Source of the DNA: Bacillota bacterium
Lineage (GTDB): Bacteria > Bacillota > Clostridia > Lachnospirales > Bianqueaceae
Length of the DNA stretch: 64,000 bases
Assembly (NCBI GenBank): GCA_017441925.1
Contig: JAFRUE010000008.1
Span: 62,001-126,000 of the forward strand
Direction of reading: 5' to 3'
Made by a program: the position numbers and the translations under genes. Of the stretch, positions 18,245 to 62,981 are shown one piece after another (the stretch's first letter is position 1; the number at the start of each line of letters is the position of its first letter). The notes under the pieces were generated by a model that saw only the letters and a list, made by a program, of their open reading frames with translations, did not search any database and had not been told where the DNA came from.

Positions 18245-18671
18245 TTTCGCGGGGGCGATTCTTTGGAGACTGACAGGTCTTGAAGCAGCGGCAGCCAGGC
18301 AGAAATTCTCTTTTGGGCCCCGAGTTTCCGCTTGTGTTCGTTGCGGCGGTAAAAATTCGATTCATGCTGTTTTTTACCACCGGTTTACATGGATAGACCA
18401 CTGCTTTTGGGGCCGGAGTTCTGTTTTTTCGTTGTTTTTTCGCTGCTTCTGCGCTTGCCCGGCAGAATAATTCATTTAATTCACTGTCTTTTCAGCTTTT
18501 GGGTCGAAAAATGGCGGTAAATATAAGAATAATAGGCGCTTTTACCGCCGCTGCCGGGTACTGCGGCTGACAGGGACAGTTCCGGCACAGCACAGATGCA
18601 GCAAATATAAAAATGCGCGGCACAGACCGCGGCAGTACGGTTTTTACAATTACATATAGGGAGGGATCAGC
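18245..18671 (+). repeat. Gene-free region with repeated words and two matching hairpins
   Basis: No gene is visible. The stretch holds two hairpins with the same stem: CGGCGGTAAAAA (18344-18355) with its near-complement at 18371-18382, and GGCGGTAAA (18513-18521) with TTTACCGCC (18541-18549). It also holds three copies of a CTTTTGGG(G/C/T)C word (18310, 18404, 18496), the first two extending to 17 nt with two mismatches. The last 100 bp should contain the promoter of the next gene, but no convincing -35/-10 pair was found. Confidence 0.55.
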
Positions 18672-28167: not shown

Positions 28168-28222
28168 TTGACAAACCAGGTCGATAAATGTAGACTATGG
28201 TTGGGGTCTAAAGTTATAGACC
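28168..28222 (+). promoter_or_regulatory. BlaI-type promoter with two 18-bp operators (locus 1)
   Basis: TTGACA (28168-28173), 17-bp spacer, TAGACT (28191-28196). Operator O1 is GGTCGA-N6-TAGACT (28179-28196), covering the -10 box; O2 is the perfect dyad GGTCTA-N6-TAGACC (28205-28222). The layout is repeated base for base in spacing at 58710-58764 in front of the paralogous pair, which is strong evidence that these are the repressor sites. Confidence 0.82.
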
Positions 28223-28240
28223 GCGGAAGGAGTCTACACC

Positions 28241-28600
28241 ATGAGTATCGAACTGACAATGGCACAGGAACGTTTTGCGGATATTGTCTGGGCACACGAA
28301 CCGATCGGATCCGGAGAACTGGTCAGAATCTGTGCAAAGGAACTGAACTGGAAGAAATCCACGACATACACCGTACTTGCGAAAATTTGTGAAAAAGGCC
28401 TTCTGCAGAATATTAACGGCCTTGTGACATCACGTATTTCCAAAGAGGATTTCTACTCATCCAAAAGCGAAAAGATTGTCGAGGATTCTTATGAGGGATC
28501 TCTGCCGGCATTTGTCGCAGCTTTTATTGCTCGGAAAAACCTTACGGTTAAGGAGGCAGAGGAAATCCGCCGTATGATTGACGCCTTCAAGGAGGAATAA
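28241..28600 (+). CDS. BlaI/MecI/CopY-family repressor (locus 1)
   Basis: A 119-residue winged-helix protein with AAGGAG upstream. The helix-turn-helix region (about residues 8-60) contains QERFADIVWAHEP, the turn SGELVRICAKELNWKKSTTYTVL with recognition helix KKSTTYTVL, and a wing around GLVTSRISKEDF. The C-terminal dimerisation part has GSLPAFVAAF and KEAEEIRRMI. BlaI repressors dimerise on dyads and are cleaved when the partner BlaR1 protease is activated. It is two bases upstream of the BlaR1-like gene. Its closest relative in the window is the 58785 gene, identical at roughly two thirds of positions by eye. Confidence 0.93.
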   Translation: MSIELTMAQERFADIVWAHEPIGSGELVRICAKELNWKKSTTYTVLAKICEKGLLQNINGLVTSRISKEDFYSSKSEKIVEDSYEGSLPAFVAAFIARKNLTVKEAEEIRRMIDAFKEE

Positions 28601-28602
28601 TC

Positions 28603-30906
28603 ATGAGCGGGATTTTTCTTAAAATACTCAATATGAGCATAGCGGCTGGATGGATGATCCTTGCTGTTGTGCTGATGCGTGGAATCCTACGTAAAGCACC
28701 AAAATGGACGATCTGTTTGCTCTGGGCAATCGTGGCGGTCCGGCTGATCCTTCCGTTTTCTTTTGAAAGTAGGTTCAGCCTGGTTCCAAGCGCCGAAACA
28801 ATACCGCAGAATATTACAGAACAGCAGGAACCTGCCATCAACACAGGGATTTCAATTATAAACGAAGCGATCAATCCCATAATTGCGGATAATTTTGCTC
28901 CGACAAAACCGACGGATACACAATCGAAAGATTCGGTAAAACAGGACGTTCCAGAGATGCCAGCAAGTCAGATTCATACGGAATCTCCAGCTCCGGCGGT
29001 CCCGGAAGACCCGAAGAAGGCAGATGTTCCCACGATCATCAAACCACTGCAAAGAGTTTTAAAAACAGCATCGGTGATCTGGCTGGCCGGGGTTATTGCT
29101 ATGCTCATCTATGCCCTCATCAGTTATTTGAAGATCCGCAAAACGGTTGCCATGTCCGTCCCGGCAGGGGACAGATATGAAGAAATACTACCGGCCGGGA
29201 TTCGGATCAGGGCCGGCGATGAAGTGAAATCGCCGTTTATTCTTGGCATTATCCGGCCTGTTGTCTATGTACCTTTTGCTGTGGACGGCGAATCTCTGAA
29301 CTATGTGCTTCAGCATGAAGCTGCGCATCTGAAGCGGCGTGATCATTGGTGGAAGCCTTTGGGATTCCTGTTGTTAGCGGTTTATTGGTTCAATCCGCTG
29401 TGTTGGCTTGCTTATATCCTGCTGTGCAGAGATATAGAAGTTGCCTGTGATGAAAAAGTAATCCGGGATATGGACAAATACTCGAAGGCCGCCTATTCAA
29501 ATGCATTGCTGAATTGCAATTACTCACGGCAGAAGGTTGCCGTGTGCCCGCTAGCCTTTGGAGAAGTCGGCGTAAAACAACGGATCAAGGGTATTCTGAA
29601 CTATAAAAAGCCTGCATTCTGGAGCATCCTGATCGCACTGATTGCCTGTCTTGTGGTTACGGTGTGTCTGTTGACGGATCCGGTTTCAGGTTCCGGCAGA
29701 GAAGTATCTGAAGCAGATTCAAGCGGAGAAGATTCCGATGTGATTTCTCACAAAGATGAGATTCAGTATGCCGAGACTGTCGATGAACTGGAGGAGGCGG
29801 CGGGTCATAAGATCAACAATATAGAGAGTTTTACAGTAATAGCCACATCGGTTTCTGCCGATAGCTGCGATCTGACGTATTCCAATCAGACGGAAAGGCT
29901 GTATGACGCGGGAGCTGAGTTCTGGCTGTACGCAAAAAACGTGGAATCCGGCTGGTACAGGCTGCCCTATAAGGAATCCGATATTCCGCTGGCTTTCCCG
30001 ATGTCTGCTTATCCGGTCGCTCCGGGCAAAGAGCGGACTGATCATTATAATATTGAGGCATATTATGGGACGCTTCCGGATGGCGAATACTGCATGGTTA
30101 TCGGTGTGCAGCCGGAACGGGACGATGACCGGTATCCGGAAGAAAAGAATGTAGACATCACGCAACTGGAATCATATTTCACAGTATATTTTACAATTCC
30201 GGCAGAGAGCCAGACGGCAGAAATGGCCGAATGGAACGCGTATCTTGCGTCGATGGCGGATGAGGCAGAGCTATTTACATCCGTCGATTTCGTGACGATC
30301 TATGACGAGCCGTTGAAAAGGACACTGTATCAGTACACAACGGAGGAAGGGGAAACCTTCACTTTCACGGATCAGAAAGAGCTCCGCTCATTCACTGTAG
30401 AAAACTGGTGGGAGGAGATGCCGGACGATCTGCCGATTCTCGTGAAGACGGCACAGGATGCCGTAGACGCCTTTATTGAACAGTATGGGATGGTGATTCC
30501 AAATCTGGAACAATATAAGATAGCCAGATACGACGATGCAGCAGACTTCAAGATGTGGGAGGTCATACTTGCCAGAAAACGCGGAGAATATCTGCAGGAT
30601 GAGATCAATATAAAAGTCCGGAAAGATGGGAAAGTCGTGGGTTTTATCCTTTCGATGCCCAAGATCGGCAACTATTCGGAAGAACAATACACACGGGATT
30701 ATAACGAAGCGGTGGAAGCCTTAAAGAACCTGCATCCGAAACAGAACTTAGAGCGATGTGAGCTGGCGGATTTACGATTTGATACTTATGATGACGGGAT
30801 CTGTGCGGCCACGTATACTTTCTACTGCAGTACCAGCCAATTCATGAATGGAACGAAATACGAGGCAGCCTTTGCAGAAGAATGCCGGATCATCGTCAGA
30901 CCATAG
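28603..30906 (+). CDS. BlaR1-like membrane metalloprotease with novel sensor (locus 1)
   Basis: A 767-residue M56-family protein. Two N-terminal helices (about 8-28 and 36-52), an extracytoplasmic Pro/Glu-rich loop (60-150), a third helix (about 155-175), then the cytosolic zinc site QHEAAHLKRRDHWW with His238-Glu239-His242 and the later glutamate motif EVACDE (279-284), and a fourth helix (about 341-358). In BlaR1 and MecR1 a penicillin-binding domain follows; here residues 385-767 contain no SxxK or KTG motif. Instead there is an Ig-like strand-rich part (about 400-530, GEYCMVIGVQ) and a second unknown domain (540-767). It should cleave its BlaI partner on sensing an external signal, which is probably not a beta-lactam. 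Confidence 0.88.
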   Translation: MSGIFLKILNMSIAAGWMILAVVLMRGILRKAPKWTICLLWAIVAVRLILPFSFESRFSLVPSAETIPQNITEQQEPAINTGISIINEAINPIIADNFAPTKPTDTQSKDSVKQDVPEMPASQIHTESPAPAVPEDPKKADVPTIIKPLQRVLKTASVIWLAGVIAMLIYALISYLKIRKTVAMSVPAGDRYEEILPAGIRIRAGDEVKSPFILGIIRPVVYVPFAVDGESLNYVLQHEAAHLKRRDHWWKPLGFLLLAVYWFNPLCWLAYILLCRDIEVACDEKVIRDMDKYSKAAYSNALLNCNYSRQKVAVCPLAFGEVGVKQRIKGILNYKKPAFWSILIALIACLVVTVCLLTDPVSGSGREVSEADSSGEDSDVISHKDEIQYAETVDELEEAAGHKINNIESFTVIATSVSADSCDLTYSNQTERLYDAGAEFWLYAKNVESGWYRLPYKESDIPLAFPMSAYPVAPGKERTDHYNIEAYYGTLPDGEYCMVIGVQPERDDDRYPEEKNVDITQLESYFTVYFTIPAESQTAEMAEWNAYLASMADEAELFTSVDFVTIYDEPLKRTLYQYTTEEGETFTFTDQKELRSFTVENWWEEMPDDLPILVKTAQDAVDAFIEQYGMVIPNLEQYKIARYDDAADFKMWEVILARKRGEYLQDEINIKVRKDGKVVGFILSMPKIGNYSEEQYTRDYNEAVEALKNLHPKQNLERCELADLRFDTYDDGICAATYTFYCSTSQFMNGTKYEAAFAEECRIIVRP

Positions 30907-30973
30907 TTTTGTATGGATTTCCGGTGGATTCTATGAATCTGCAAATGCGTGAAACAGATGAGGGGTGATATGT

Positions 30974-32674
30974 ATGGCTAAGTCATTTGGAAAAACGCTT
31001 AAGCGTTTCTGGTGGGCGATCGTCCTGCTGGCCGCAGGGCTGTTTTTGGCGTACACATTTATCCGATATCCGCTTAAGACCACGCTTTCCAGACTTGCGC
31101 ACATGGATCCGGACAGTTGTCGGATTGTGTTGTGGCATTGGGGCAAAGAGGCTGAGATTGCCGATGAAAACGCCAGAACGTTACTGTTGGATTCCCTTGA
31201 CGGTGAGCTGAAAAGGCGTGCTGTCGGCGACTGGATCATGAAGACGGCCGGCGGCGACTGGGTCCTGAAGCTTTCGGACGGGGAGAGAGAGGTACAGCTG
31301 ATCCTGTATCCCGGTCATTCAACGGATATCGCAACCCAGCCTTTCATCAAATACGGACACTATGAATATGCCGTGGAGCGCATGATTTCCTATGAAAAAC
31401 TGAACTGGCTGTTTGAGGACGCGGTTTCTTCGGCGGAAGCTCCGGGAACCCTCCCGGCAGTCGAGGTCGTTCATGAGCGGATCTCCATGTCCGAAGCCGC
31501 GCGAAATCAGTATCTTTCCGTTGATGGATTTGTTCTCTGTTATGATTACAGCGGCCAGGACTGGGACGGCGAAAAAGGCGAGTCGCTCGGCATGACAGAG
31601 GAAAAAGGTCCGACATGGGTGGCCGAGAGTCTGCCGGCGTACATGCCGCCTGATCGTTCGGACCGGAGCTATATTCTGGTTGAAAAAGACGGAGTGCTGC
31701 AGATTTACGCTGCCGGCAGTATTGCAGGACGTTATGGGGAGGGCAGCGGTGACAAGTATACTTTCGGCCAGGTGCTGGATCTGCTGGGGGAAGATGATGC
31801 TTCGGAAGCCAGGCGGATCACGATAGAGGAGGTTCCCGGATGGCCGGATTATTACGAATCCAGAGTCATCACGAAAGAAAAAGATATCAGAGATCTGGTT
31901 GAAGCTTTCCTTGAGATGCCCAATGTGTCACAGGGCGAGTACAATGCGCATAATGCTGTTACCGGCGAGGCGAATTATCTGGAAGGGGCAGCCGATCCGG
32001 GAATTGGACGCCTGAGGGAGAGGACGTTTACTGTTCAGTTCTCGTCAGGGAATCGATACAAACTGAAGCTGGATCCAGTTAGTGGATATATAAGTATCAC
32101 CGGATATATGAGTGTCAGTGGTGAACCGAGCAATTGGGGGACCTATAAAGTGTCCCCGGAGTTGTGCGATCAGCTGATCGAGCTTGCCGGAATCGACTTG
32201 GATATGGAGAAACTATATGCATTGGGCGAAGAGCGGACTGCTGCGGGAGAGGCTTTCCGTGCGATAGACCGTCGGTTTATTACGGTCCGGGATGGTGTCC
32301 GGGATGGTGGGTACTATGCCGGTACGTGGCTGACGGGGACGGATGTTGAGGTCTGGCTTACGGATGCCGCAACAGAGGAAGACGTTGCGGCGATCAGAAA
32401 AACCGCGAACTATGACAAGGTCATTTTTCATAAGGCGCGATACACCTATAAAGAGCTTGGCGACACCAGTGGACAGATCCGTCGGGATGCCGAGGCCGGA
32501 CTGCTGCCGTTTGTCGTATCGAATATGATGCTGATAAAAGAAAACCGGGTCGCAGTGGAGATCTCCGAGAACACGCCGGAGAATCTCCGGAAACTGATGG
32601 AGTATGTCCCTGACGGTAATCCGGCAATGCTGCATGTTCAGATATACCAACCGCTGCCGTTACTGGGGGAATAA
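30974..32674 (+). CDS. Membrane-anchored extracytoplasmic protein, unknown function
   Basis: A 566-residue protein starting at ATG 30974 (AGGGGTG upstream; an in-frame GTG three codons earlier is less likely). One N-terminal helix (WWAIVLLAAGLFLAYTFI, about residues 13-30) follows a basic stretch, so the rest is outside the cell. The exterior is acidic, with a possible tandem similarity between the parts near HWGKEAEIADENARTLLL and the C-terminal VEVWLTDAATEEDVAAIR. No family is recognised. It starts 67 bp after the BlaR1-like gene and is probably the last gene of that transcript, hence a candidate target or ligand-binding partner of the sensor. Confidence 0.72.
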   Translation: MAKSFGKTLKRFWWAIVLLAAGLFLAYTFIRYPLKTTLSRLAHMDPDSCRIVLWHWGKEAEIADENARTLLLDSLDGELKRRAVGDWIMKTAGGDWVLKLSDGEREVQLILYPGHSTDIATQPFIKYGHYEYAVERMISYEKLNWLFEDAVSSAEAPGTLPAVEVVHERISMSEAARNQYLSVDGFVLCYDYSGQDWDGEKGESLGMTEEKGPTWVAESLPAYMPPDRSDRSYILVEKDGVLQIYAAGSIAGRYGEGSGDKYTFGQVLDLLGEDDASEARRITIEEVPGWPDYYESRVITKEKDIRDLVEAFLEMPNVSQGEYNAHNAVTGEANYLEGAADPGIGRLRERTFTVQFSSGNRYKLKLDPVSGYISITGYMSVSGEPSNWGTYKVSPELCDQLIELAGIDLDMEKLYALGEERTAAGEAFRAIDRRFITVRDGVRDGGYYAGTWLTGTDVEVWLTDAATEEDVAAIRKTANYDKVIFHKARYTYKELGDTSGQIRRDAEAGLLPFVVSNMMLIKENRVAVEISENTPENLRKLMEYVPDGNPAMLHVQIYQPLPLLGE

Positions 32675-40052: not shown

Positions 40053-43000
40053 ATGAAACGAAATCTGAGGAAGTTTTCAAGTCTTGTTCTCGTGTTGATC
40101 ATGCTTCTTAGCACGGTCAAGCCCGTCTACGCAGAGGGTCCCGCTGATGGACAGAGCGTCCCGCCTGCAGAGATGAGCCAGACAGAGACAGATGAAAACA
40201 ACGAAGAGGCAGCCCCTGCTGAGTCGGTTAAGGAGACCCCGGCAGAAGAGGACAACGAGACTCCTGCCGAGGAGGTCAACGAGACTCCTGCCGAGGAGGT
40301 CAACGAGACTCCTGCTGAGGAGGTCAAAGAGACTCCTGCCGAAGAGGTCCAGGAGACCCCTGTCGAGGAAGTCCAGGAGACCCCTGTCGAGGAAGTCCAG
40401 GAGACCCCTGTCGAGGAGGTCAAGGAGACCCCTGCAGAGGAGGTAAAGGGAACTCCTACTGAGGAGGTCCAGGAGGCCCCTGCTGAGGAAGTCCAGGAGA
40501 CCCCTGCTGAGGAAGTTAAAGAGACTCCGGCTGAGGAAGTCAAGGAGACTCCTGCAGAGGAAGTAAAGGAAACTCCTGTCGAGGAGGTCCAGGAGACTCC
40601 TGTAGAGGAATCTGAGGAAACTCCTGCAGAGGAGCCTGAGGAAACTCCTGCAGAGGAGCCTGAAGAGACTCCTGCGAAGGATGATCAGCCTGCGCTTACC
40701 AAGAACATGTTGATGAAAGGCGCGCCTATTCTGAAGAACGCGGATCCTTCCGAAGAGCCTGTTTTTGATGACAGCACGAATCCGTTTACCTATACCCATG
40801 GAGATATGGTGCTTAGCTGTTCCAAATTGGGTGATGGAGAACTCAGCATATCGATTACGAAAGCTTCAGGAGATGTTGTGATTCCTGAGAAGATCGGAGA
40901 CTATACCGTTACGACGGTCTACTCTGTGCCTAAAGATGTTGCGGCCGGCATTACGAGCCTGACGCTGCCGGATACCGTAAGAACGATTCCCGGCAATCTG
41001 TTCGAGTTCCGGCAGTATAAGAACGAGAATCAGACGGAAAGATGGAATATAAAATCCAACTCTACCATCAGCTATTCCGTTCTGGATACCGATGCTCTGG
41101 AAGCGGCTGTTCCCGACTTTATTAAGAACAACTACGTTGACGGTGCCTATTACGCGGGAAAATGCCTTGTCCGTGTGGATCCTTCCTACAGTGGCAATTT
41201 CACCGTTAAGGACGGCACGATCTGCGTTCTGGCAGGTGCCTTTGCCGGTTGCAAAAACCTTGGCGCGGTAACGCTTCCCGATACCGTGGAGTATCTCGGC
41301 GTCGGCGCCTTCCAGGATTCCGGCCTGACTTCCATCAACCTGCCCAAGGGGTTGGACGCGCGCAGCGCACAGGTTCGGGACAGAATTGAGAGCGGCGAGA
41401 TCACTTACATCAATGATCTCACGATTGAAACGCTTACGTTCTATGGCTGCGAGAATCTGAAGACCGTCACGATCGACGCGGACAACATCTATTCCGTCGG
41501 ATTCATGGCGTTCTTCGGTTGCACGGCCCTGGAAGAATTCGATATGAGGAAGGTCAGCTTGGTCAATTCCCTTTCCTTCGCTCTGGCGTTTGCGGAAGGG
41601 TATGAGCTGGATCTTTCCGAAACAGAGGATCTCAGCTGGTTTAACAGCCAGGGAGGCGACTGGAGCAGCTGTGCCTGGGGACCGTTCCTGCAGTCCGGCC
41701 TTTCTTCCGTCAAGTTCGGCGAAGAGCATTTCGGCATTATTCCTTACGAATGCTTCTGCAGCTGCCCGAATCTGGAGACGGTGACGTTCACTCCCCATCA
41801 GATCGAGTGCTGCACCCGTTCGTTCTACAACTGCGGCAAGCTGACCGGCGATCTGTTCGCCGAGAACAGCGGAATGGTCAAGCTGGAGTATCTGGCTTTC
41901 GGCAAAACAGGACTGACCGAGATCACGATTCCCGAAACGATGCTGTATCTGTGCGGCGGAGTATTTACCGAATGCCCGAAGCTGAAAACGCTGAACTGGA
42001 AGTCTGAACTGTTCTTCGCTCCCCAAGAGAAAAAACCCGAGTACTCGCTTTATAACGGCAATTACAGTACCGGTCAGCTGTTTGCGATTCTGGACAATTC
42101 AACCGATGCCGCATTCGGCAAAAAGGGTCATTATGAGTCGCAGTACTCCTCATATGACTATCGTTCCATGGGTAATTTTGCGGAAGCCCTGGAATACGCT
42201 TCCAACATGGATTCTTACGAGGATAAAACGACCCTGGAGACGCTGAACATCTACGTCAGCGACGATGCGTTTGTCCGTTACAACAGCACCTTCTGGGAGA
42301 TGCAGCCCAACCTTGAGACCGTCAATATCCATGCGGTATGGAAGACCGTTCCTTACTGCGCGTTCCAGGCCTGCGCCTCTCTGAAGAACTTTAATATGGA
42401 TTATCCCGAACAGCTGGAGAACGTCTATGAGAACGCGTTTGCCATCTGCGGATTTGAAGAGCTCGTGCTTCCCGGAAACGTTTCATACGATAAAGGAGCG
42501 TTCTGTTTCAACCGCAACCTGAAGAAGGTTGTGATCGAGGAGGGCGTTACCGAGCTTCCGTTCCTTGCTTTTGAGCGCTGCGAGAAGCTGACGCAGGTTT
42601 CGATTCCAGAGTCGTTGGAAGCTTTCGGCGTAGCATCTTTCAAGGGCGCCGGAGATCATCTGACAATCTATGTTCCGACGAAAGTAGAAGTGATTGAAGA
42701 TGATGCTTTCACTTATGGAAACAGTTCAGCGGAACGGATCGCGCTTATTCTGATGGATGATCCGATTATTGAGACATATCATTTAGGAGTGTCCGGAGGT
42801 GAAAACAAAGCAACATTAGACAACCGATCCGTATATCGTATCTATACAAATCAGGGTTCTAATTTCATTTCATATGCATCCAGTTCTTCTAATCTGACAA
42901 GCGATATCCGCCAGGTGCCTGCCGACAAGGTTACAATTACCAGTACGGAGAAAAAAATCTATGTCGGCGAGACACCGGATAAGAGCAAAGTAACCGTTAC

Positions 43001-46000
43001 GCTGAACGGAACCGAGCTGACGGCAGAGCAGTTTGATCTGGAATATGACGAGACGGACAAGACTGTCGGAACCCACCACGTTAAGGTCATTCTGACCGGC
43101 GAGACTGCAGAGAACTATCTGCTGGGCAACGATATTTCGGCTGTCAATTTCTACAAAACAGCGAAGAGCGGTCCGGTTTATGACGTAGTCAGTGCTGACA
43201 ATCTCGGATATGATGTTGAGGTCGTGAAGGCTGTCTATACATTCACTGAAGGCGGCGGAAGCACATATACCAAGCATCAGGATACGGGAACGCTTGACTT
43301 TAAGGTAAACCGTGAAGAGGATGATGAACTGACCTTTGCACGCTTTACCCGTCTGCTCGTCGACGGCAAAGAGCTTGCTGCAGAGAACTATACGGTATCT
43401 GAAGGCAGTCTGAACGTCAGCTTGGCGGAAGATTATCTGGAGAACGCTGTCGTCGGCACACACACCCTCAAGGCAGAATTTACCGACGGCGAGGCAGAAA
43501 CCGAGTTCACGATCGACTCGATCCCGCCGAAAACGGTCGATACGGAAGATAACGTTGAGAAGGGCATCACGCTGAATCTGTTCGATTACCACATCGCTTC
43601 CGACTGGTGGCAGTACGGCGACCGCTGGGCTAACCAGGGCGGACAGTGGTCATACGGCGGCATCAACGATGCTTCTAATCTGAAGTTCTACGGCCACGGC
43701 GGTGATGAAGTGCTCTCCGGCAACAGTAATATGTATACCGGCGCTCCGATCGCCCGTCAGGGTATCGTACAGCCGCTGCTCGGTGAGAACGGATATCCGG
43801 TGATGACCGAGTTCGGTCAGCAGAATCTGGAGCTTCTGTTTGCACCAGAGACGGTCGAAGGACAGAAGACCGTCTATAAGAACGTAAATCATTTCTTCCA
43901 GCTGGATAAGCAGGGCAACTATTATTACAACAGCGATCAGAATTACGCTTATTATGATCCTGAACAGGGCGACGAAGGGGATTATAAGGTCTATGACGGC
44001 ACTTATGTTGTCAATATGACCAACCCAGAGAATGAAGCGACGTCCGAGAAGGTCAACGTCGGTTATTTCCCGTTTGACGACTGGAACGAAGCGAAACAGA
44101 ACGTGGCTCCTTCCGATGATCTGGCAGCACAGGGCATCGAGGGTTATAACCACCAGCACGGTCTGACCATGAGCTGCAATTTCTTCATTCCGGAAGAAGG
44201 TACGCTCGATGGAGAAGATCTGGTCTTCAGTTTCAGCGGCGATGATGACGTCTGGGTATTCGTGGACGGCGTACTGGTTCTCGATATCGGCGGTCTGCAT
44301 CGTCCGCTCGGCGGATCCATCAACTTCAGCACCGGTGAAGTACTGGTTGACGACGCGGTAGTCCTTGCGCCTTACAATGGCGAAGTGCCGACACCGGAGA
44401 CCAATGGAACCTACAATACGCTGAACGACATTTTCGCAAAGGCCGGCAAGACCTTTGAGACCGGCAATGTAAAGCACACACTGAACTTCTTCTATATGGA
44501 GCGCGGCGGCTGCTATTCCAACCTGTCCCTGATGACCAATATCTGGAAGGTTACAGGCGACGAAGAGTACACGCAGATCCATGTAACCAAGAAATGGGAA
44601 GATGAAGAAGACCATTCCGGAGATACCGTTACCGTACAGCTTCTGGCTGACGGCGAAGACGTGGAAGGACGTACTGAAGAAATCTCTGCGGAAAACGACT
44701 GGACCGCGGCTTTCACCCGCCTGCCCAAGTATAAGACGGATGATGACGGCAATCAGACAGAAATCGTTTATTCCGTACGTGAAAAGCACGTCGATGATTA
44801 CTTCACCACCTATAAAGCCGGCGGAAAGCTGCTTGTTTCCAAGAACTACTGGGTACAGGTAGATCCGTCCGAACTCAAAGACGGTGAGATCTATGTAATC
44901 ACATCCAACTACTGGATCGACGATACGTATGATGATATTCTGTACCGTGCTGCCGGCAATAATCTCGGGTATATCAAGGCGAATATCCGCGAACAGGAAG
45001 TAACGGATACGGAAGGCAATAAGTATGACACCATTCTGGCCGGTTCGATTCAGTCCAGCTCACAGTGGACGGCACAGCAGGTCAAGCCTGAACAGACTGA
45101 GCCTGCAGAGGGCGGAGAAACCGGTGACGGCGGAGAAACCACAGAACCTGCAGAGGCCGAAGTCCGCTGGATCCTTTCCAATAACGGCAAGGCTTTGACA
45201 CTGGTAGGACATAATGAGTGGTGGTGGCATAATTATTCCTTCACCCTGACCGACCAGACTGGTTGGAACGGTGCTGAAAACAACAATTATAATAACGAGC
45301 TGTCCATCACTCCTGATGCGGACGACAAAACCGCGACCATTCATGCCTTTGAACTCTGGGGCGACTATTCGGGCAATCTGGTTCCGGATCCGGAGCAGTA
45401 CATGCTGCTGAACGGCGACAAGACTATCGGAGCTACCAACAATCCGGACTGGGCCGGACATTACCGCTTCTTCAAGCAGGTGACGGAAGAGACCGAGATC
45501 CCGCTTGAGAAGGACTGGACTGTCGTGAACAGCCCGGCAGGCGACCTGACCGTTAAGAAGGTCGTAACCGGTCCCAAGGTTGCGGATCACGAGTTCACTT
45601 TCACCGTTGAGCTGAGCGATAATACGCTGAACGGGACCTTCGGCGATATGGAATTCACCGCCGGCAAGGCAACGTTCAAGCTGAAGGACGGGGAGAGCAA
45701 GACGGCTCAGGATCTGCCGGCTGACATCACTTACACCGTCAGCGAGACACCTCGCATCGGTTATACAACGACATCTGAAGGCGCATCCGGAACGATCGTC
45801 GCGAAGGAAGAGCAGGAAGCTGTATTTACCAACGCTGTAGATGTGGTAGAGGTTCCTGTCGAGAAGATCTGGAACGACGCGGACGATCAGGATGGCGTAC
45901 GTCCGGACTCCATTGAACTGACGCTGTACGCCAACGATGCGGAGAAGGATATGGCGACCGTTGAGCCGGATGAAAAAGGCAGCTGGAATTATACATTTGA

Positions 46001-47834
46001 GAATCTGCCGAAGTATGACGCGGACGGACAGTGGATCCATTACAGTGTAACCGAGACGCAGGTTGACAAGTATGACGAACCTGTGATGGGAGGATCGATG
46101 ACGGATGGATACACGGTCAAGAATAACCGTACACCTTCCAGAATCAACATCATTGTTGAGAAGGTATGGGATGATGCGGATAATCAGGACGGAAAGCGTA
46201 CAGAGAGCGTAACGGTCCATCTGCTTGCCGACAGTGAAGATACCGGCCTGAGCGCTGTTCTGGAAGAAAAGAACGACTGGACCCATATCTTTGAAGGTCT
46301 GGATGAATTCAAGGATCACGGTACAGAGATCGAGTACTCTGTTACCGAGGAGTCCATCGGAAACGATTACACCGTAACAATCAGTGACCCGGTCAAGGTC
46401 GGCGAAACGACGGCTAAGCTGAAAGTCACGAATACGCATGAAGTCGCGAAGACAGAGATCACCGTGAGCAAGGTTTGGGATGATAAGGACGATCAGGACG
46501 GAGCACGTCCGGGCGAAGTCGTTATCGAGCTGCTTGCGGACGGTGAGAAGACCGGCAAGGAAGTGAAGCTTTCCGAAGAGAACGAATGGACCGACAGCTT
46601 TACCGATCTTGATGTTTACGCGAATGGTGTTGAGATCGAATATACTGTAACAGAAGTAACGGTTCCGTACTACGCGGCGGAGATCACCGGAGATGCGGAG
46701 ATTGGCTTTACCGTGACCAACTCTCATACGCCCGGCAAGACCACTGTTACCGTTGAGAAGGTCTGGGATGACAAGGACGATCAGGACGGCCTGCGCCCGG
46801 AGAGCGTCACTGTCAAGCTTCTGGCTGACGGAGAGGACACCGGCCTTACGCTGGAGCTTTCCGAAGAAAACAGCTGGAAGGATTCTTTCACCGAGCTTGA
46901 TCTCAACAAGGCCGGCAAGGCTATCGAATACACGGTGGAAGAGGAAGAGATCGCAGATTACACTGTAGCCATCAGCGGAGACGCGGAGAAGGGCTTTGTC
47001 ATCACGAATACGCACGAATCTGAGAAGACAGAGATCCCTGTAAGTAAGGTTTGGGACGATGTGGACGATCAGGACGGCGTACGCCCGGATGAAGTCGTTA
47101 TCCTGCTGCTTGCGGATGGCGAGAAGACCGGACAGTCGGTTGTCCTCTCTGAGGAGAACGGCTGGAAGGATACTTTCAAAGATCTCGATGTCAAGAAGGA
47201 TGGCACGAAGATCGCTTATACGGTGACAGAAGCAACTGTTCCGCACTATGCGGCGGAGATCACCGGAGATGCGGAGAAGGGCTTTACCGTGACCAACTCT
47301 CATACGCCCGGCAAGACCACTGTAACGGTTGAGAAAGTCTGGGATGACGAGGATGATAAGGACGGCTTGCGTACGGAGAGCGTCACTGTCAAGCTTCTGG
47401 CGGACGGAAAGGACACCGGTCTTAAAATGACCCTGTCCGAGAAGAACGGCTGGAAGGATAGCTTCACCGAGCTCGATCTCAAGAAGGATGGTGAAGAGAT
47501 CAAGTACACGGTAGCTGAGGCAAAGGTTGAGGGCTATACGATAACTATCGACGGAAACGCGGTGGATGGTTATGTCATAACGAATACACATGAGCCAAAG
47601 CCCGAGGAGTCTTCTGAACCTGAGGAGTCTTCTGAGCCTGAGGAATCTTCTAAACCTGAGGAGCCCTCTAAGCCCGAGGAATCCTCTAAACCTGAGGAGT
47701 CCTCTAAGCCGCCGGTGCCGGCGACCGGTGACAACAGCCGTCCGGGAGTTTATGCCGGTATTATGATCGCCTGTGTACTGGGTGCAGCGCTTGCGCTTCT
47801 GGTCAGCAGGAAGGAAAAACAGCAGAACAGCTAA
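40053..47834 (+). CDS. Giant cell-wall-anchored adhesin (LRR, fibro-slime, Cna-B repeats)
   Basis: A 2593-residue surface protein with AAGGAG upstream. Order: signal peptide 1-27 (ending VYA); 19 octapeptide repeats (ETPAEEVK type) 61-212; BspA-like leucine-rich repeats about 250-900 (YAFQNCxxL-like units such as FYGCENLKTVTIDADNIYSVG); Ig-like domains to about 1165; a fibro-slime domain about 1169-1497 with FSFSGDDDVWVFVDGVLVLD; eight Cna-B-type collagen-adhesin stalk repeats about 1505-2515 (VEKVWDDxDxQDG start with Lys, YTVTE Glu, VTNTH Asn, the isopeptide triad), the first interrupted by a Trp-rich 220-residue insert; a Pro/Glu/Ser wall spacer; sortase motif VPATG at 2555-2559, a helix and the positive tail. 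Probably a host- or plant-fibre-binding stalk. It is the last gene of the GH5/glycosyltransferase operon and ends at a strong terminator. Confidence 0.93.
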   Translation: MKRNLRKFSSLVLVLIMLLSTVKPVYAEGPADGQSVPPAEMSQTETDENNEEAAPAESVKETPAEEDNETPAEEVNETPAEEVNETPAEEVKETPAEEVQETPVEEVQETPVEEVQETPVEEVKETPAEEVKGTPTEEVQEAPAEEVQETPAEEVKETPAEEVKETPAEEVKETPVEEVQETPVEESEETPAEEPEETPAEEPEETPAKDDQPALTKNMLMKGAPILKNADPSEEPVFDDSTNPFTYTHGDMVLSCSKLGDGELSISITKASGDVVIPEKIGDYTVTTVYSVPKDVAAGITSLTLPDTVRTIPGNLFEFRQYKNENQTERWNIKSNSTISYSVLDTDALEAAVPDFIKNNYVDGAYYAGKCLVRVDPSYSGNFTVKDGTICVLAGAFAGCKNLGAVTLPDTVEYLGVGAFQDSGLTSINLPKGLDARSAQVRDRIESGEITYINDLTIETLTFYGCENLKTVTIDADNIYSVGFMAFFGCTALEEFDMRKVSLVNSLSFALAFAEGYELDLSETEDLSWFNSQGGDWSSCAWGPFLQSGLSSVKFGEEHFGIIPYECFCSCPNLETVTFTPHQIECCTRSFYNCGKLTGDLFAENSGMVKLEYLAFGKTGLTEITIPETMLYLCGGVFTECPKLKTLNWKSELFFAPQEKKPEYSLYNGNYSTGQLFAILDNSTDAAFGKKGHYESQYSSYDYRSMGNFAEALEYASNMDSYEDKTTLETLNIYVSDDAFVRYNSTFWEMQPNLETVNIHAVWKTVPYCAFQACASLKNFNMDYPEQLENVYENAFAICGFEELVLPGNVSYDKGAFCFNRNLKKVVIEEGVTELPFLAFERCEKLTQVSIPESLEAFGVASFKGAGDHLTIYVPTKVEVIEDDAFTYGNSSAERIALILMDDPIIETYHLGVSGGENKATLDNRSVYRIYTNQGSNFISYASSSSNLTSDIRQVPADKVTITSTEKKIYVGETPDKSKVTVTLNGTELTAEQFDLEYDETDKTVGTHHVKVILTGETAENYLLGNDISAVNFYKTAKSGPVYDVVSADNLGYDVEVVKAVYTFTEGGGSTYTKHQDTGTLDFKVNREEDDELTFARFTRLLVDGKELAAENYTVSEGSLNVSLAEDYLENAVVGTHTLKAEFTDGEAETEFTIDSIPPKTVDTEDNVEKGITLNLFDYHIASDWWQYGDRWANQGGQWSYGGINDASNLKFYGHGGDEVLSGNSNMYTGAPIARQGIVQPLLGENGYPVMTEFGQQNLELLFAPETVEGQKTVYKNVNHFFQLDKQGNYYYNSDQNYAYYDPEQGDEGDYKVYDGTYVVNMTNPENEATSEKVNVGYFPFDDWNEAKQNVAPSDDLAAQGIEGYNHQHGLTMSCNFFIPEEGTLDGEDLVFSFSGDDDVWVFVDGVLVLDIGGLHRPLGGSINFSTGEVLVDDAVVLAPYNGEVPTPETNGTYNTLNDIFAKAGKTFETGNVKHTLNFFYMERGGCYSNLSLMTNIWKVTGDEEYTQIHVTKKWEDEEDHSGDTVTVQLLADGEDVEGRTEEISAENDWTAAFTRLPKYKTDDDGNQTEIVYSVREKHVDDYFTTYKAGGKLLVSKNYWVQVDPSELKDGEIYVITSNYWIDDTYDDILYRAAGNNLGYIKANIREQEVTDTEGNKYDTILAGSIQSSSQWTAQQVKPEQTEPAEGGETGDGGETTEPAEAEVRWILSNNGKALTLVGHNEWWWHNYSFTLTDQTGWNGAENNNYNNELSITPDADDKTATIHAFELWGDYSGNLVPDPEQYMLLNGDKTIGATNNPDWAGHYRFFKQVTEETEIPLEKDWTVVNSPAGDLTVKKVVTGPKVADHEFTFTVELSDNTLNGTFGDMEFTAGKATFKLKDGESKTAQDLPADITYTVSETPRIGYTTTSEGASGTIVAKEEQEAVFTNAVDVVEVPVEKIWNDADDQDGVRPDSIELTLYANDAEKDMATVEPDEKGSWNYTFENLPKYDADGQWIHYSVTETQVDKYDEPVMGGSMTDGYTVKNNRTPSRINIIVEKVWDDADNQDGKRTESVTVHLLADSEDTGLSAVLEEKNDWTHIFEGLDEFKDHGTEIEYSVTEESIGNDYTVTISDPVKVGETTAKLKVTNTHEVAKTEITVSKVWDDKDDQDGARPGEVVIELLADGEKTGKEVKLSEENEWTDSFTDLDVYANGVEIEYTVTEVTVPYYAAEITGDAEIGFTVTNSHTPGKTTVTVEKVWDDKDDQDGLRPESVTVKLLADGEDTGLTLELSEENSWKDSFTELDLNKAGKAIEYTVEEEEIADYTVAISGDAEKGFVITNTHESEKTEIPVSKVWDDVDDQDGVRPDEVVILLLADGEKTGQSVVLSEENGWKDTFKDLDVKKDGTKIAYTVTEATVPHYAAEITGDAEKGFTVTNSHTPGKTTVTVEKVWDDEDDKDGLRTESVTVKLLADGKDTGLKMTLSEKNGWKDSFTELDLKKDGEEIKYTVAEAKVEGYTITIDGNAVDGYVITNTHEPKPEESSEPEESSEPEESSKPEEPSKPEESSKPEESSKPPVPATGDNSRPGVYAGIMIACVLGAALALLVSRKEKQQNS
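40233..40688 (+). repeat. 24-bp tandem repeat array encoding ETPAEEVx octapeptides
   Basis: Nineteen in-frame 24-bp units encode ETP(A/V)EEV(K/Q/N) variants, the last ones drifting to ETPAEEPE and ETPAKDDQ. Neighbouring copies are nearly identical in DNA, a likely site of copy-number change by slippage. Confidence 0.92.
46452..47603 (+). repeat. Tandem duplication of a 576-bp two-domain stalk unit
   Basis: Two consecutive units (46452-47027 and 47028-47603), each encoding 192 residues made of two alternating Cna-B domains (a TEI-x-VSK type and a TTVTVEK type). Long stretches match at DNA level, for example around 46674 and 47250, exactly 576 bp apart. Confidence 0.88.
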
Positions 47835-58709: not shown

Positions 58710-58764
58710 TTGACAACGAAAGTCTATTGGAGTAGACTACAGTTAAAGTCTATCAGAATAGTCC
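58710..58764 (+). promoter_or_regulatory. BlaI-type promoter with two 18-bp operators (locus 2)
   Basis: TTGACA (58710-58715), 17-bp spacer, TAGACT (58733-58738). Operator O1 is the perfect dyad AGTCTA-N6-TAGACT (58721-58738) and O2 is AGTCTA-N6-TAGTCC (58747-58764). O1 begins 11 bp after the start of the -35 box and O2 begins 26 bp after O1, exactly as at 28168-28222. Confidence 0.85.
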
Positions 58765-58784: not shown

Positions 58785-59147
58785 ATGAATGTAGAACTTG
58801 GCGCAGTACAGGAACGTTTTGCGGATATCGTTTGGGCCCATGAGCCGATCGAATCCGGAGAACTTGTTAAGATTTGTGAAAAGGAACTGAACTGGAAGAA
58901 ATCGACGACCTATACCGTCCTTCACAAGCTTTGCGATAAGAAATTGCTCCAGAATCAGAAAGGGACAGTAACCTCGCTGATTTCACGTGAGGATTTCTAT
59001 GCATCCAAGAGTGCACAGATCATTGCGGAATCGTATCAGGGTTCGCTGCCATCCTTTATAGCAGCCTTTGTCTCTCAGCAAAAACTATCTGCAAAGGAGG
59101 CAGAGGAGATCCGGAAACTGATCGGCTCCTATGAGAAAGAGAGCTAA
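58785..59147 (+). CDS. BlaI/MecI/CopY-family repressor (locus 2)
   Basis: A 120-residue repressor starting at ATG 58785 (AAAGGA 10 bp upstream; a TTG two codons earlier is possible). Helix-turn-helix with SGELVKICEKELNWKKSTTYTVLHKL and C-terminal GSLPSFIAAF dimer region. The recognition helix KKSTTYTVL is identical to that of the 28241 paralogue, consistent with their near-identical operators, so the two repressors may bind each other's sites. The gene ends two bases before the BlaR1-like gene. Confidence 0.93.
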   Translation: MNVELGAVQERFADIVWAHEPIESGELVKICEKELNWKKSTTYTVLHKLCDKKLLQNQKGTVTSLISREDFYASKSAQIIAESYQGSLPSFIAAFVSQQKLSAKEAEEIRKLIGSYEKES

Positions 59148-59149
59148 GC

Positions 59150-61246
59150 ATGAGTACTTTGTTCTTAAAGATACTCAATATGAGTATCACAGCCGGATGG
59201 CTGATACTTGCGGTGATGATCACGAGATGGATACTCAGAAGAGCAACACGACGGATCATCTGTTTGCTGTGGGTATTTGTTGCTGTCCGGCTGGTTCTGC
59301 CGCTTTCCCTGCCGAGTCCGATCAGCCTGATTCCAAACAGGCAGCCGATTCCGGAAAGCATTATTACTGCCACAGAACAGGAAAACGAAGAACCTGTGAC
59401 GGATATGGCGACATCTGCGACCGATCAGGAAGCTCATACGAGCAATGAGGCGACAGAATTCAATACACCGGAAACATTAGTCCCTGCTGTTAATCCGGAT
59501 CCATCAATCGATCTGAATACGGCCGCCAGTGCGAACCCATGGCAGGCTGCTTTCTCCATCGCGTCTATCGTATGGGTTGTCGGGATCTGTGCCATGCTGC
59601 TGTATGCCGTCATTCACTATTTGAAGCTTAAGAAATCGCTCGCAGCCTCGATCGAGTACAGAGAAGCCGGGACAGATCATTATACAGGACAGATCAGGAT
59701 CTGCGATGAGATCAAGGCGCCTTTTATCCTGGGCATCCTGCATCCGGTTCTCTATATCCCGTCCGGCCTGAACGGACAGGCATTGGAATATGTCCTGCAG
59801 CATGAACAGGCGCATCTAAGACGAAAAGACTATCTGTGGAAGCCGCTTGGATATCTGATTCTCACGATTCACTGGTTCAATCCGCTGTGCTGGGCCGCAT
59901 ATCTTCTGTTCTGTCAGGATGTGGAAATGGCTTGTGATGAAGCTGTGATTTGGGACATGGACCGAGAACATATTGCGGATTATATGAGGACACTTCTTGC
60001 CTGCAGCCAGTCTAATAGATTGAATGCGGCTACTCTTGCATTTGGCGAGGTTGGAGTAAAACGGCGTATCCGGAATATTGCGCAGTATAAGAAACCAGCC
60101 TTTGGAGCGGTTGCAGCCATAATCGTGGTCAGCCTTGGAATGGCAGCCTGTCTGATGACGGACCCGATAGACAAAAACGTCATTACAGGGGAAACATCCT
60201 ATAAAGTATTTGTTACACAGGCAGAGAGACCGTTTTCGGACGATAAACCCTATGTAAATGATCGGACGAGACTGTATCATTTTATGACGAGGGACGGATC
60301 TGCTTTTGCACAAGGGACAGATCTGCTGCAGTATATGGAGAAAGGCTCGAACGACTGGCACGTTCTTTGCAAAGATTCGGACTGTCTGCATGCATCGGAA
60401 GATTGTCCTGCATATTATGTCGGCCGGCATGAGATCCTGGATATAGATTCGAATAACCATATCCGGGTTCTGGAGTTTGCGAATGCCGGACACCAGCTCG
60501 TGATCTGGAAAGTGAATACACGTACGTACATGAAGGATGCAGCAGCGTCTTTTGATCTGGATGAATTGAGTGGAACGCGGAAGGACGGATCAATCCGACT
60601 CTCCGACTTCTGCGAATACAACGATAAGTTGTATCTGACCTATCCGGCGGAGGAACAGAACACGGACATAACATGGCTTATTCGAATTGATCTGAAGACA
60701 TTTCAGGCTGATAATATTGTTTGTATTCAGCCATCCATGCTGCCCGTGGATTATTCCGTCATTCACCGGTTTGAGTATGTCGAGGACGATATTGTTTATC
60801 TTATGCTTGAAAACGCTGTTTCCGGGCAGATGCGACTGTACGGATTTGATATGGAGCAGTTGGAATTTGCCGACACCGGATTTGAACTGGCATATGGCAC
60901 ATCCTATTGCCTGGCGGGCCCTCAGGCTGTATACATTGAGCAGGATGATGAGCAGTGCTATTTGGTTAAAACGGACGTCCTGACCGGTGAAAGCACGCTG
61001 CTTGCGGATACTTTTATTGGTACCAAGATTAGACCTGGAACAGTGCCGTATCTGGGCTTTGTAAATGTATCCACATGGGAGCATCCAAAGAGCACCTATT
61101 ATCAGCTGAACATGAATACCGCGGAAATGACTGAGTATTACAAAGCAGGATCTCAGATCTATAAGTCCAGCGGTAACGGATATGCTGCCTATCTTGAGTA
61201 TGAAGCCGACTATAGCTATAAGCTTGCCATAAAGAAAGCTAGTTGA
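59150..61246 (+). CDS. BlaR1-like membrane metalloprotease with lipoprotein-type sensor (locus 2)
   Basis: A 698-residue M56-family protein, paralogue of the 28603 gene over its first 340 residues. Membrane segments at about 8-28, 36-52 and 135-157; zinc site QHEQAHLRRKDYLW with His218-Glu219-His222; EMACDE at about 259-264; final helix about 316-335. The external part (about 345-698) is not a penicillin-binding domain. It carries a C-x4-C-x-H-x4-C motif (Cys407, Cys412, His414, Cys419) within LCKDSDCLHASEDCPAYY and propeller-like strands. The same domain makes up the two lipoproteins encoded downstream. It should cleave its BlaI partner on an unknown extracellular cue. Confidence 0.9.
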   Translation: MSTLFLKILNMSITAGWLILAVMITRWILRRATRRIICLLWVFVAVRLVLPLSLPSPISLIPNRQPIPESIITATEQENEEPVTDMATSATDQEAHTSNEATEFNTPETLVPAVNPDPSIDLNTAASANPWQAAFSIASIVWVVGICAMLLYAVIHYLKLKKSLAASIEYREAGTDHYTGQIRICDEIKAPFILGILHPVLYIPSGLNGQALEYVLQHEQAHLRRKDYLWKPLGYLILTIHWFNPLCWAAYLLFCQDVEMACDEAVIWDMDREHIADYMRTLLACSQSNRLNAATLAFGEVGVKRRIRNIAQYKKPAFGAVAAIIVVSLGMAACLMTDPIDKNVITGETSYKVFVTQAERPFSDDKPYVNDRTRLYHFMTRDGSAFAQGTDLLQYMEKGSNDWHVLCKDSDCLHASEDCPAYYVGRHEILDIDSNNHIRVLEFANAGHQLVIWKVNTRTYMKDAAASFDLDELSGTRKDGSIRLSDFCEYNDKLYLTYPAEEQNTDITWLIRIDLKTFQADNIVCIQPSMLPVDYSVIHRFEYVEDDIVYLMLENAVSGQMRLYGFDMEQLEFADTGFELAYGTSYCLAGPQAVYIEQDDEQCYLVKTDVLTGESTLLADTFIGTKIRPGTVPYLGFVNVSTWEHPKSTYYQLNMNTAEMTEYYKAGSQIYKSSGNGYAAYLEYEADYSYKLAIKKAS

Positions 61247-61417
61247 GGATGCTGTGAGGATATTAATGCATCTGAAGATGCAGGTGTGGTTTTTGTTGCC
61301 AAAAAAACAGAAGGGGGTGATTCCGACGGGCTAATTATTTCAATATCATTGGGCAAAAAAGCAACACTTATAGGCAGTAATACAAATATAGAATACGACA
61401 GGAGGTTACACCTATGA
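61247..61417 (+). pseudogene. Possible AT-rich gene remnant
   Basis: Directly after the BlaR1-like stop there is a stop-free frame of about 56 codons without an ATG that reads like protein (DAGVVFVAKKTEGGDSDG, LIISISLGKKATLIGS) and ends at a TGA overlapping the start of the next gene. It may be the tail of a lost gene or start from an internal GTG. Family not recognised. Confidence 0.35.
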
Positions 61418-61821
61418 AGAAGAGTATTATGAGAAAGGTATTTGCGATAATGGTGGCGATGATTGTATCCATATGCTCATTTACCGCAAATGCAGGGACG
61501 ATGGTGGAAATTGACTATGGTTCAACAACGATCAGTCCTGACTGCGGTGGAGATATTTATGTGAATTATAGTGTCAGGTATGCGGGAGCCACTCATTCTG
61601 CATCAGTAACGGGATGGAGTTATTCATTGGACACTTATTCCTTAGGCGTACAACATGGATTTATTCCTTCAAGTGTGCAGGTAACGAGTGAGTATGCCAC
61701 TTATTTTCTGATTTCTGCAAGTGGTGGAACATGGTTTGTCGAGACGATTTTTCCATTTGATATATGGCCGGATGTAAATTATGAAACAACACATAGCCAT
61801 TCTAGAACGGTAACTTACTAA
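61414..61821 (+). CDS. Small secreted protein, unknown function
   Basis: A 135-residue protein with AGGAGG upstream and a classical signal peptide (MKKSIMRKVFAIMVAMIVSI, cleavage probably after FTANA). The mature part of about 108 residues is rich in Ser, Thr, Tyr and His, contains a single Cys and looks like an all-beta domain. Codon use is AT-richer than that of flanking genes. No family is recognised; a secreted toxin-like or surface role is possible but unsupported. Confidence 0.75.
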   Translation: MKKSIMRKVFAIMVAMIVSICSFTANAGTMVEIDYGSTTISPDCGGDIYVNYSVRYAGATHSASVTGWSYSLDTYSLGVQHGFIPSSVQVTSEYATYFLISASGGTWFVETIFPFDIWPDVNYETTHSHSRTVTY

Positions 61822-61835
61822 TCATTGTTATTGCC

Positions 61836-62981
61836 ATGAAACGAGTGGGCTATTACATTATCATGCTGCAGCTGACCATTCTTTTAATGGTAGGCTGCGG
61901 CACTAAAAGTATTGCGGTTGATGATGACAGGCCGTATAGAGTGGTTCAGACACTGGGTTATACTGAACGATTGGTGAATGAGGACAGAGTTTACGCTTTT
62001 TTGTTTGAACCGGGCGAACAGTTCTTTATCGGAGGGGGTATTCTGAAGTATAAAGAGAAAAACAGCGGAGGATGGCAGACCTTGTGCTGGAAACCGGGCT
62101 GTTCTCATACATCGGAAGACTGTCCTGCCTATTACGAGTATTCACACAGACTGCTGAATCTTGGCGACAAGGGAGAAGTCCGGATTCTGGAATTCACCCG
62201 GCCAGCCGGACTTGCGGTCTGGGAGATCAATCCGAATCGGTCGACAAAGACGAAACTGGCTTCGTTCGACCTGGCAGAGATGACGGACAGCACGAATGAT
62301 ATGGGTTATATGGAATACGATACCTGTGAGTATGGGCATAAGCTGTATTTATTCTATGAAACGTCCAGTGGAAGTGGAGACGAGCGGGAAATTGCGAACT
62401 GGATTCTCTGTTTTGATCTGGAAACGCTGAAGGCCGAAGAGCCGTTATGCCTGCAGGAAATCGGGTTGCCCGAAGCATTCCCGTTCGTGTATCATTTTCA
62501 ATTGATTGAAGATGGCGTGCTGTACTGTTGTCTTGCGAACCAGAACAAATATGAATACAATGGCGATGAAGGAATAAGACTGCGTATCTACCGATTTTTT
62601 TTGGCTGATCATACATGGACGGATACGGGTTATGAAACGGATTGGCTTGCCCAGAACCAGATGGGTCATGTGATAATCGAGAAAAGAAAAGACGGAGACC
62701 GGTATTATCTGACCAGTGTAGACCTTCTGACAGGAGAGACTGCTGTGATTACGGAAGTCCCGGGAAGCATTACATATACACTGACCGCTTCACAGTACAT
62801 TCACCGGATCAGCATTCTGGATACCGCGGATGTGTCCATGTACGAGTATGACATGGACACAGGAGAGAAACACTTTTTTCAGGATTCCTACTGCATCGCA
62901 TACGGAAATGGCTACTGTGCTTTTGATTCAATGACATCGGATGGCAGCGGAACACTTCGGATTGAGAGGATTACCCCATGA
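61836..62981 (+). CDS. Lipoprotein sharing the BlaR1 sensor domain (copy 1)
   Basis: A 381-residue lipoprotein (signal MKRVGYYIIMLQLTILLMVGC; no good ribosome binding site is seen). The mature part aligns along its length with the external domain of the 59150 BlaR1-like protein: LCWKPGCSHTSEDCPAYY has the same C-x4-C-x-H-x4-C motif, followed by VRILEF, LAVWEINPNRSTKTKLASFDL and later SVDLLTGET. Proteins with this motif are common uncharacterised clostridial lipoproteins (DUF5050-like propellers). Its stop overlaps the next gene (ATGA). Confidence 0.82.
   Translation: MKRVGYYIIMLQLTILLMVGCGTKSIAVDDDRPYRVVQTLGYTERLVNEDRVYAFLFEPGEQFFIGGGILKYKEKNSGGWQTLCWKPGCSHTSEDCPAYYEYSHRLLNLGDKGEVRILEFTRPAGLAVWEINPNRSTKTKLASFDLAEMTDSTNDMGYMEYDTCEYGHKLYLFYETSSGSGDEREIANWILCFDLETLKAEEPLCLQEIGLPEAFPFVYHFQLIEDGVLYCCLANQNKYEYNGDEGIRLRIYRFFLADHTWTDTGYETDWLAQNQMGHVIIEKRKDGDRYYLTSVDLLTGETAVITEVPGSITYTLTASQYIHRISILDTADVSMYEYDMDTGEKHFFQDSYCIAYGNGYCAFDSMTSDGSGTLRIERITP

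Follow-up and report, generated by a model that had tools for sequence, protein, structure and literature searches.

Two blaI-M56 operons and their promoters

The window (the whole stretch of 64,000 nucleotides that was analyzed) carries two blaI genes on the forward strand, blaI-1 at 28241-28600 (119 aa) and blaI-2 at 58785-59147 (120 aa), both encoding the recognition helix WKKSTTYTVL. The products are members of the BlaI/MecI/CopY (Penicillinase_R) family: Pfam PF03965 spans the whole of each protein, with 69.9 and 81.8 bits, respectively, against a cut-off of 22.6 bits. The AlphaFold2 model of BlaI-2 (pLDDT 82.3) consists of a winged helix and C-terminal dimerization helices. Its best fold match is MecI (1okr_B; Z 13.3, rmsd 3.1, 115 aligned), and the matches include DNA complexes of MecI and BlaI, such as BlaI-DNA 1xsd (Z 12.2, rmsd 3.9, 119 aligned). 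The NCBIfam BlaI/MecI models gave the window repressors 40.9 bits at best, which does not reach the cut-off of 180, and the scores fell far under the CopY_TcrY cut-off.

Directly after each blaI lies a forward-strand gene for an M56 (BlaR1-like) membrane protease, at 28603-30906 (767 aa, HEAAH) in the first operon and at 59150-61246 (698 aa, HEQAH) in the second. Both proteins contain HExxH and match PF05569 (170.4 and 166.3 bits). With NCBIfam blaR1_generic they scored 94.6 and 87.8 against a cut-off of 400, the match ending at about residue 359, and Pfam recognized no penicillin-binding domain on either of them. The neighboring ORFs at 25651-28137, 30965-32674, 61414-61821 and 61836-62981 (828, 569, 135 and 381 aa) gave no Pfam match at E 0.001; they are possible members or targets of the blaI operons. 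A 2593-aa ORF is present at 40053-47834 of the window, with long overlapping ORFs on the opposite strand.

The initial annotation had described both blaI promoters as TTGACA-N17-TAGACT, and direct reading of the two verified this. The -35 box TTGACA occupies 28168-28173 upstream of blaI-1 and 58710-58715 upstream of blaI-2, and the -10 box TAGACT occupies 28191-28196 and 58733-58738, all on the forward strand, as are the dyads that overlie them. At both loci, a first dyad (O1) starts 11 bp after the first -35 base and its right half is the -10 box itself, and a second dyad (O2) starts 26 bp further on, exactly as had been claimed. For blaI-1, O1 lies at 28179-28196 (GGTCGATAAATGTAGACT; GGTCGA-N6-TAGACT, one mismatch) and O2 at 28205-28222 (GGTCTAAAGTTATAGACC; GGTCTA-N6-TAGACC, perfect). 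For blaI-2, O1 lies at 58721-58738 (AGTCTATTGGAGTAGACT; AGTCTA-N6-TAGACT, perfect) and O2 at 58747-58764 (AGTCTATCAGAATAGTCC; AGTCTA-N6-TAGTCC, one mismatch). The consensus proposed for them, RGTCTA-N6-TAGACY, held in part: all four dyads are present but only two match it perfectly, two of the eight half-sites (GGTCGA at 28179 and TAGTCC at 58759) being imperfect. The GTCGA at 28179 is not simple decay, since 11 GTCGA half-sites occur among the 119 loci described below. Spacer bases within and between the dyads differ at the two window loci, and the half-sites are retained. Between O2 and the start codon of blaI-1, a lone forward half-site AGTCTA is found at 28231-28236, 26 bp past the start of O2; it is possibly a chance occurrence.

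Distribution of the dyad pair in the host genome and among relatives

When at most two mismatches are allowed, single dyads occur in the 64-kb window at close to the chance level (6 observed, 3.75 expected). The scan for pairs spaced 26 bp apart that the initial annotation had suggested was run over 2,716,364 bases of the host genome with up to three mismatches, and only the two blaI promoters matched; one extra match was self-overlapping and fell at the first of them. A reversed control pattern yielded no pairs in the same genome. A chance origin is thus ruled out for the pairs, if not for single dyads. As to a wider regulon in the host genome, there was no third pair at this spacing and mismatch level.

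The dyads could instead be the signature of a dispersed repeat rather than of BlaI, and four of the six strict single dyads in the genome (RGTYTA-N6-TARACY) do adjoin a hairpin repeat, GGCGGTAAAA...TTTTACCGCC. We regard this as extremely improbable: copies of the repeat accompany single dyads and never a pair, and the hairpin is absent from the blaI promoters. As an explanation of the pairs, a repeat artifact was rejected, the strict matches beside the hairpin being unpaired. The repeat is intergenic and dispersed, with about 15 copies, at 18338-18399 of the window and at more than 10 other places in the genome (L154-L168). Its form is TTGTGYT..TTGC-GGCGGTAAAA-N-TTTTACCGCC, and about five copies are immediately followed by a GGTYTA-N6-TARACY-like dyad.

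Conservation was assessed in 119 loci. Eighty relatives of BlaI-2 were taken from genome contigs, mostly of rumen and gut Clostridia; 29 loci were added by searching 371 genomes of the class with a residue-blind DNA pattern of the helix, and a few more came from the genus. The set holds a few duplicates (L015/L109, L024/L110 and L038/L039). Against a null built by dinucleotide resampling, the dyad pair exceeded the 99% level in 110 of the 119 blaI upstream regions; some of the nine that were not may reflect wrong starts or cut upstream regions. In 104 of the 110 loci, TTGAC precedes the right half of the first dyad by exactly 23 nt, and that right half, at the place of the -10 box, reads TAAACT (80 loci) or TAGACT (25 loci). 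The dyad centers are 26 bp apart in 47 loci and mostly 24-29 bp apart overall, a range that argues against strict helical phasing between dimers. Nearly all of the 80 BlaI-2 relatives have two dyads in place, usually in the form GGTTTA-N6-TAAACC. Where the gap is N7, the start of O1 is shifted 1 bp upstream, which keeps the -35/-10 spacer at 17. Pairs of GGTTTA dyads with at most one mismatch were found in none of 196 genomes of the window's own order, so the form that goes with a KKP helix looks concentrated elsewhere.

A search with the DNA pair pattern alone brought up six other genomes, of which five have the pair before a blaI-M56 operon; the sixth (L120) has a tandem repeat that mimics a pair and was set aside. 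Recurrence in 110 of 119 relatives, including loci found by the DNA motif alone, bears out the earlier view that the geometry is kept by selection. What began as a remark on a single genome becomes a family rule: in this BlaI branch, the operator is organized around the -10 box. A pattern search can locate it, so that regulons can be cataloged in many uncultured Clostridia of the gut and rumen. The rule is limited to this BlaI subfamily, as two further BlaI proteins of the host genome lie outside it. The third blaI (L013; C1:15153-15497, C1:15162; helix WARTTTHTVI) has neither such a pair nor a classical site, and the fourth (C9; helix APTTILTFL) has a classical TCTACA-N2-TGTAGA site. The promoter of the third carries a different dyad, ATTGTA-GTA-TACAAT.

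The same data bear on whether the two promoters are alike merely by inheritance, through an operon copied so recently that its promoters have lacked time to diverge. Gene order is the same in both operons, and in the M56 tree sisterhood of the window pair gains no support but is not rejected either (p-AU 0.47). However, BlaI-1 and BlaI-2 are only 66% identical, and spacers have changed where half-sites have stayed. In the protein tree, BlaI-2 groups with L015/L109 of the same genus (100/95) and not with BlaI-1, which groups weakly with L025/L029, and the layout recurs across the class. A recent copy is therefore very improbable and is largely refuted by the family-wide conservation. The loci had been called paralogous; they belong to one family, but a recent duplication is not borne out.

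A candidate double operator and its known counterparts

We favor the reading that two BlaI dimers occupy each site, which would serve as a double operator for autoregulation, and assign this a probability of about 0.9. A first dimer would bind O1 and fill the spacer between the -35 and -10 boxes, and a second would bind O2 just downstream, over the expected transcription start; together the two would shut off the blaI-M56 operon. The M56 protease would then sense a signal, BlaI would be inactivated and the operon released. By analogy with BlaR1, inactivation may proceed by cleavage near A94-F95: relative to the BlaI cleavage site Asn101-Phe102, Phe is kept as F95, which is invariant in 20 relatives, and Asn is replaced by Ala (A94).

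The closest counterpart comes from C. thermocellum. By DAP-seq and EMSA, BlaI_0696 recognizes GTCTAT inverted repeats five nt apart, GTCTAT-N5-ATAGAC, with two dyads per target; it regulates itself, its regulon comprises three operons, and the authors inferred four protomers per target (PMC8457756). The window sites resemble those of BlaI_0696 and BlaI_1845 in the TAGAC-type half-site (GACTAT for BlaI_1845) and in having two dyads per target (PMC8457756). The systems also share a tiny regulon, a BlaR1/M56 partner in the operon and self-regulation, which for the window is predicted (PMC8457756). They differ in the gap between GTCTA and TAGAC, which is N7 in C. thermocellum (PMC8457756) and in many relatives and N6 in the window. 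The window operators are a further member of this C. thermocellum-type double TAGAC operator and are not new.

The published consensus of the staphylococcal bla/mec operators is [A/G]NATTACA[A/T]NTGTA[A/G][T/G]NT (PMC5341023). Counted from the center, positions 4 to 8 of the window half-site are T-A-R-A-C, and the T, A and R of the bla/mec half-site T-G-T-A-[A/G] (PMC5341023) and of the CopY half-site T-G-T-M-R-N-Y (PMC7253601) fall in the same register. Besides this T-A-R at equal distance from the center (PMC5341023), the bla/mec and window systems have in common the BlaI/MecI family and fold and dyads that lie over the promoter. They differ in that the staphylococcal site has the inner TG/CA of TACA-N2-TGTA, whereas the window type keeps the outer AC and not the inner TG/CA; in the alignment the wing of the window repressors is 4 residues shorter than that of MecI; and, unlike the staphylococcal system, the window M56 partners have no recognized penicillin sensor. 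CopY/CopR operators, RNYKACANNTGTMRNY, likewise fit the window site in the T-A-R-N-Y register (PMC7253601). In E. hirae there are two such operators per promoter, and the outer R-N-Y bases matter (PMC7253601). CopY, however, requires a KACA/TGT core and responds to metal (PMC7253601), and the window proteins are not close to the CopY_TcrY models.

The initial annotation had set the window site apart from TACA/TGTA operators. This is right for the core: TACA-N2-TGTA is absent from all four window dyads, with a single TGTA half, in the dyad at 28179. The distinction is blurred, since the extended classical operator, aligned on its center, contains the window site as its outer half. Three relatives (L064, L071 and L076) even have GTTTACA-N2-TGTAAAC, the classical and window forms together. 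This, the shared register and the classical site of the fourth host BlaI point to a subfamily variant of the family operator and not to a new kind of site.

Recognition helix, half-site letters and cross-regulation

Among the 110 loci with a pair, residue 40 of the repressor is Ser in 39 and Pro in 71. At least one TAGAC half-site is present in 34 of the 39 Ser loci, compared to any TAGAC call in 4 of the 71 Pro loci, where two calls rest on doubtful dyads (L087 and L090) and two are sound (L026 and L072). Expressed as half-sites, the ratio of TAGAC-type to TAAAC-type was 104:41 for WKKS, 4:204 for WKKP and 0:76 for WKRP helices. The outermost base was T in 48 of 76 WKRP half-sites but in only 1 of 208 WKKP half-sites. 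When five loci were fetched via a TCTA pair alone, the helix proved to be WKKS in four and WKKA in one. In L064, L071 and L077, two neighboring blaI genes lie about 2.5 kb apart, one with KKP and GTTTA and the other with KKS and GTCTA; the two circuits form a natural pair and are apparently insulated.

The association of helix and half-site is clear in the counts, but few changes on the tree stand behind it, so the coupling is suggestive and not proven. When the helix columns were left out of the protein tree, at least 5 changes between Pro and Ser and one between Lys and Arg were required. An independent-pairs test had too few pairs for significance, 5 overall and only 2 when restricted to well-supported branches. 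The Fisher p of 1e-18 for the coupling ignores shared ancestry and is not counted as proof. In the BlaI-2 model, the recognition helix (39-51) opens with residues 39 and 40, which makes base contact from them plausible; since we found no openly readable literature on the MecI residues that touch operator bases, no contact is claimed. We put forward, tentatively and at somewhat less than even odds, a code in which Pro or Ser at residue 40 would set whether TAAAC only or also TAGAC is accepted, and Lys or Arg at residue 39 would set the outermost base. Such a code would keep circuits apart, as in L064, L071 and L077, or coupled, as in the window. The novel part of this work is the apparent link between one or two operator letters and one or two repressor residues. 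If the coupling is real, it would offer easily tested specificity variants that occur naturally in a repressor family of medical relevance, and it would predict which BlaI circuits in one cell communicate.

With one helix common to both window repressors and the same half-site letters at both promoters, cross-binding is expected, and each repressor likely regulates both operons. Precedent exists in S. aureus, where MecI and BlaI are interchangeable repressors (PMC3305447). The earlier prediction of cross-regulation from identical helices is thus a fair one and the helices are indeed identical, but the identity is weak evidence, WKKSTTYTV being the common form across the class. The two circuits might instead be insulated, each repressor acting on its own promoter, with the wing, the spacer bases or the dimer interface deciding. 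The wings do differ (NINGLVTSRIS and NQKGTVTSLIS), as do the O1 and O2 spacer bases of the two loci, and the separation of neighboring blaI genes by half-sites in L064, L071 and L077 suggests that insulation was selected elsewhere. Those pairs, however, differ in helix and half-site letters where the window loci share both, and the exchange between staphylococcal MecI and BlaI (PMC3305447) also speaks against insulation, which we consider unlikely although deserving of weight. The M56 proteases have the membrane and protease part in common and differ in their outer domains, a Big_14 Ig-like domain in the partner of BlaI-1 and a domain without assignment in the partner of BlaI-2, so the two may sense different things yet act on repressors of the same operator.
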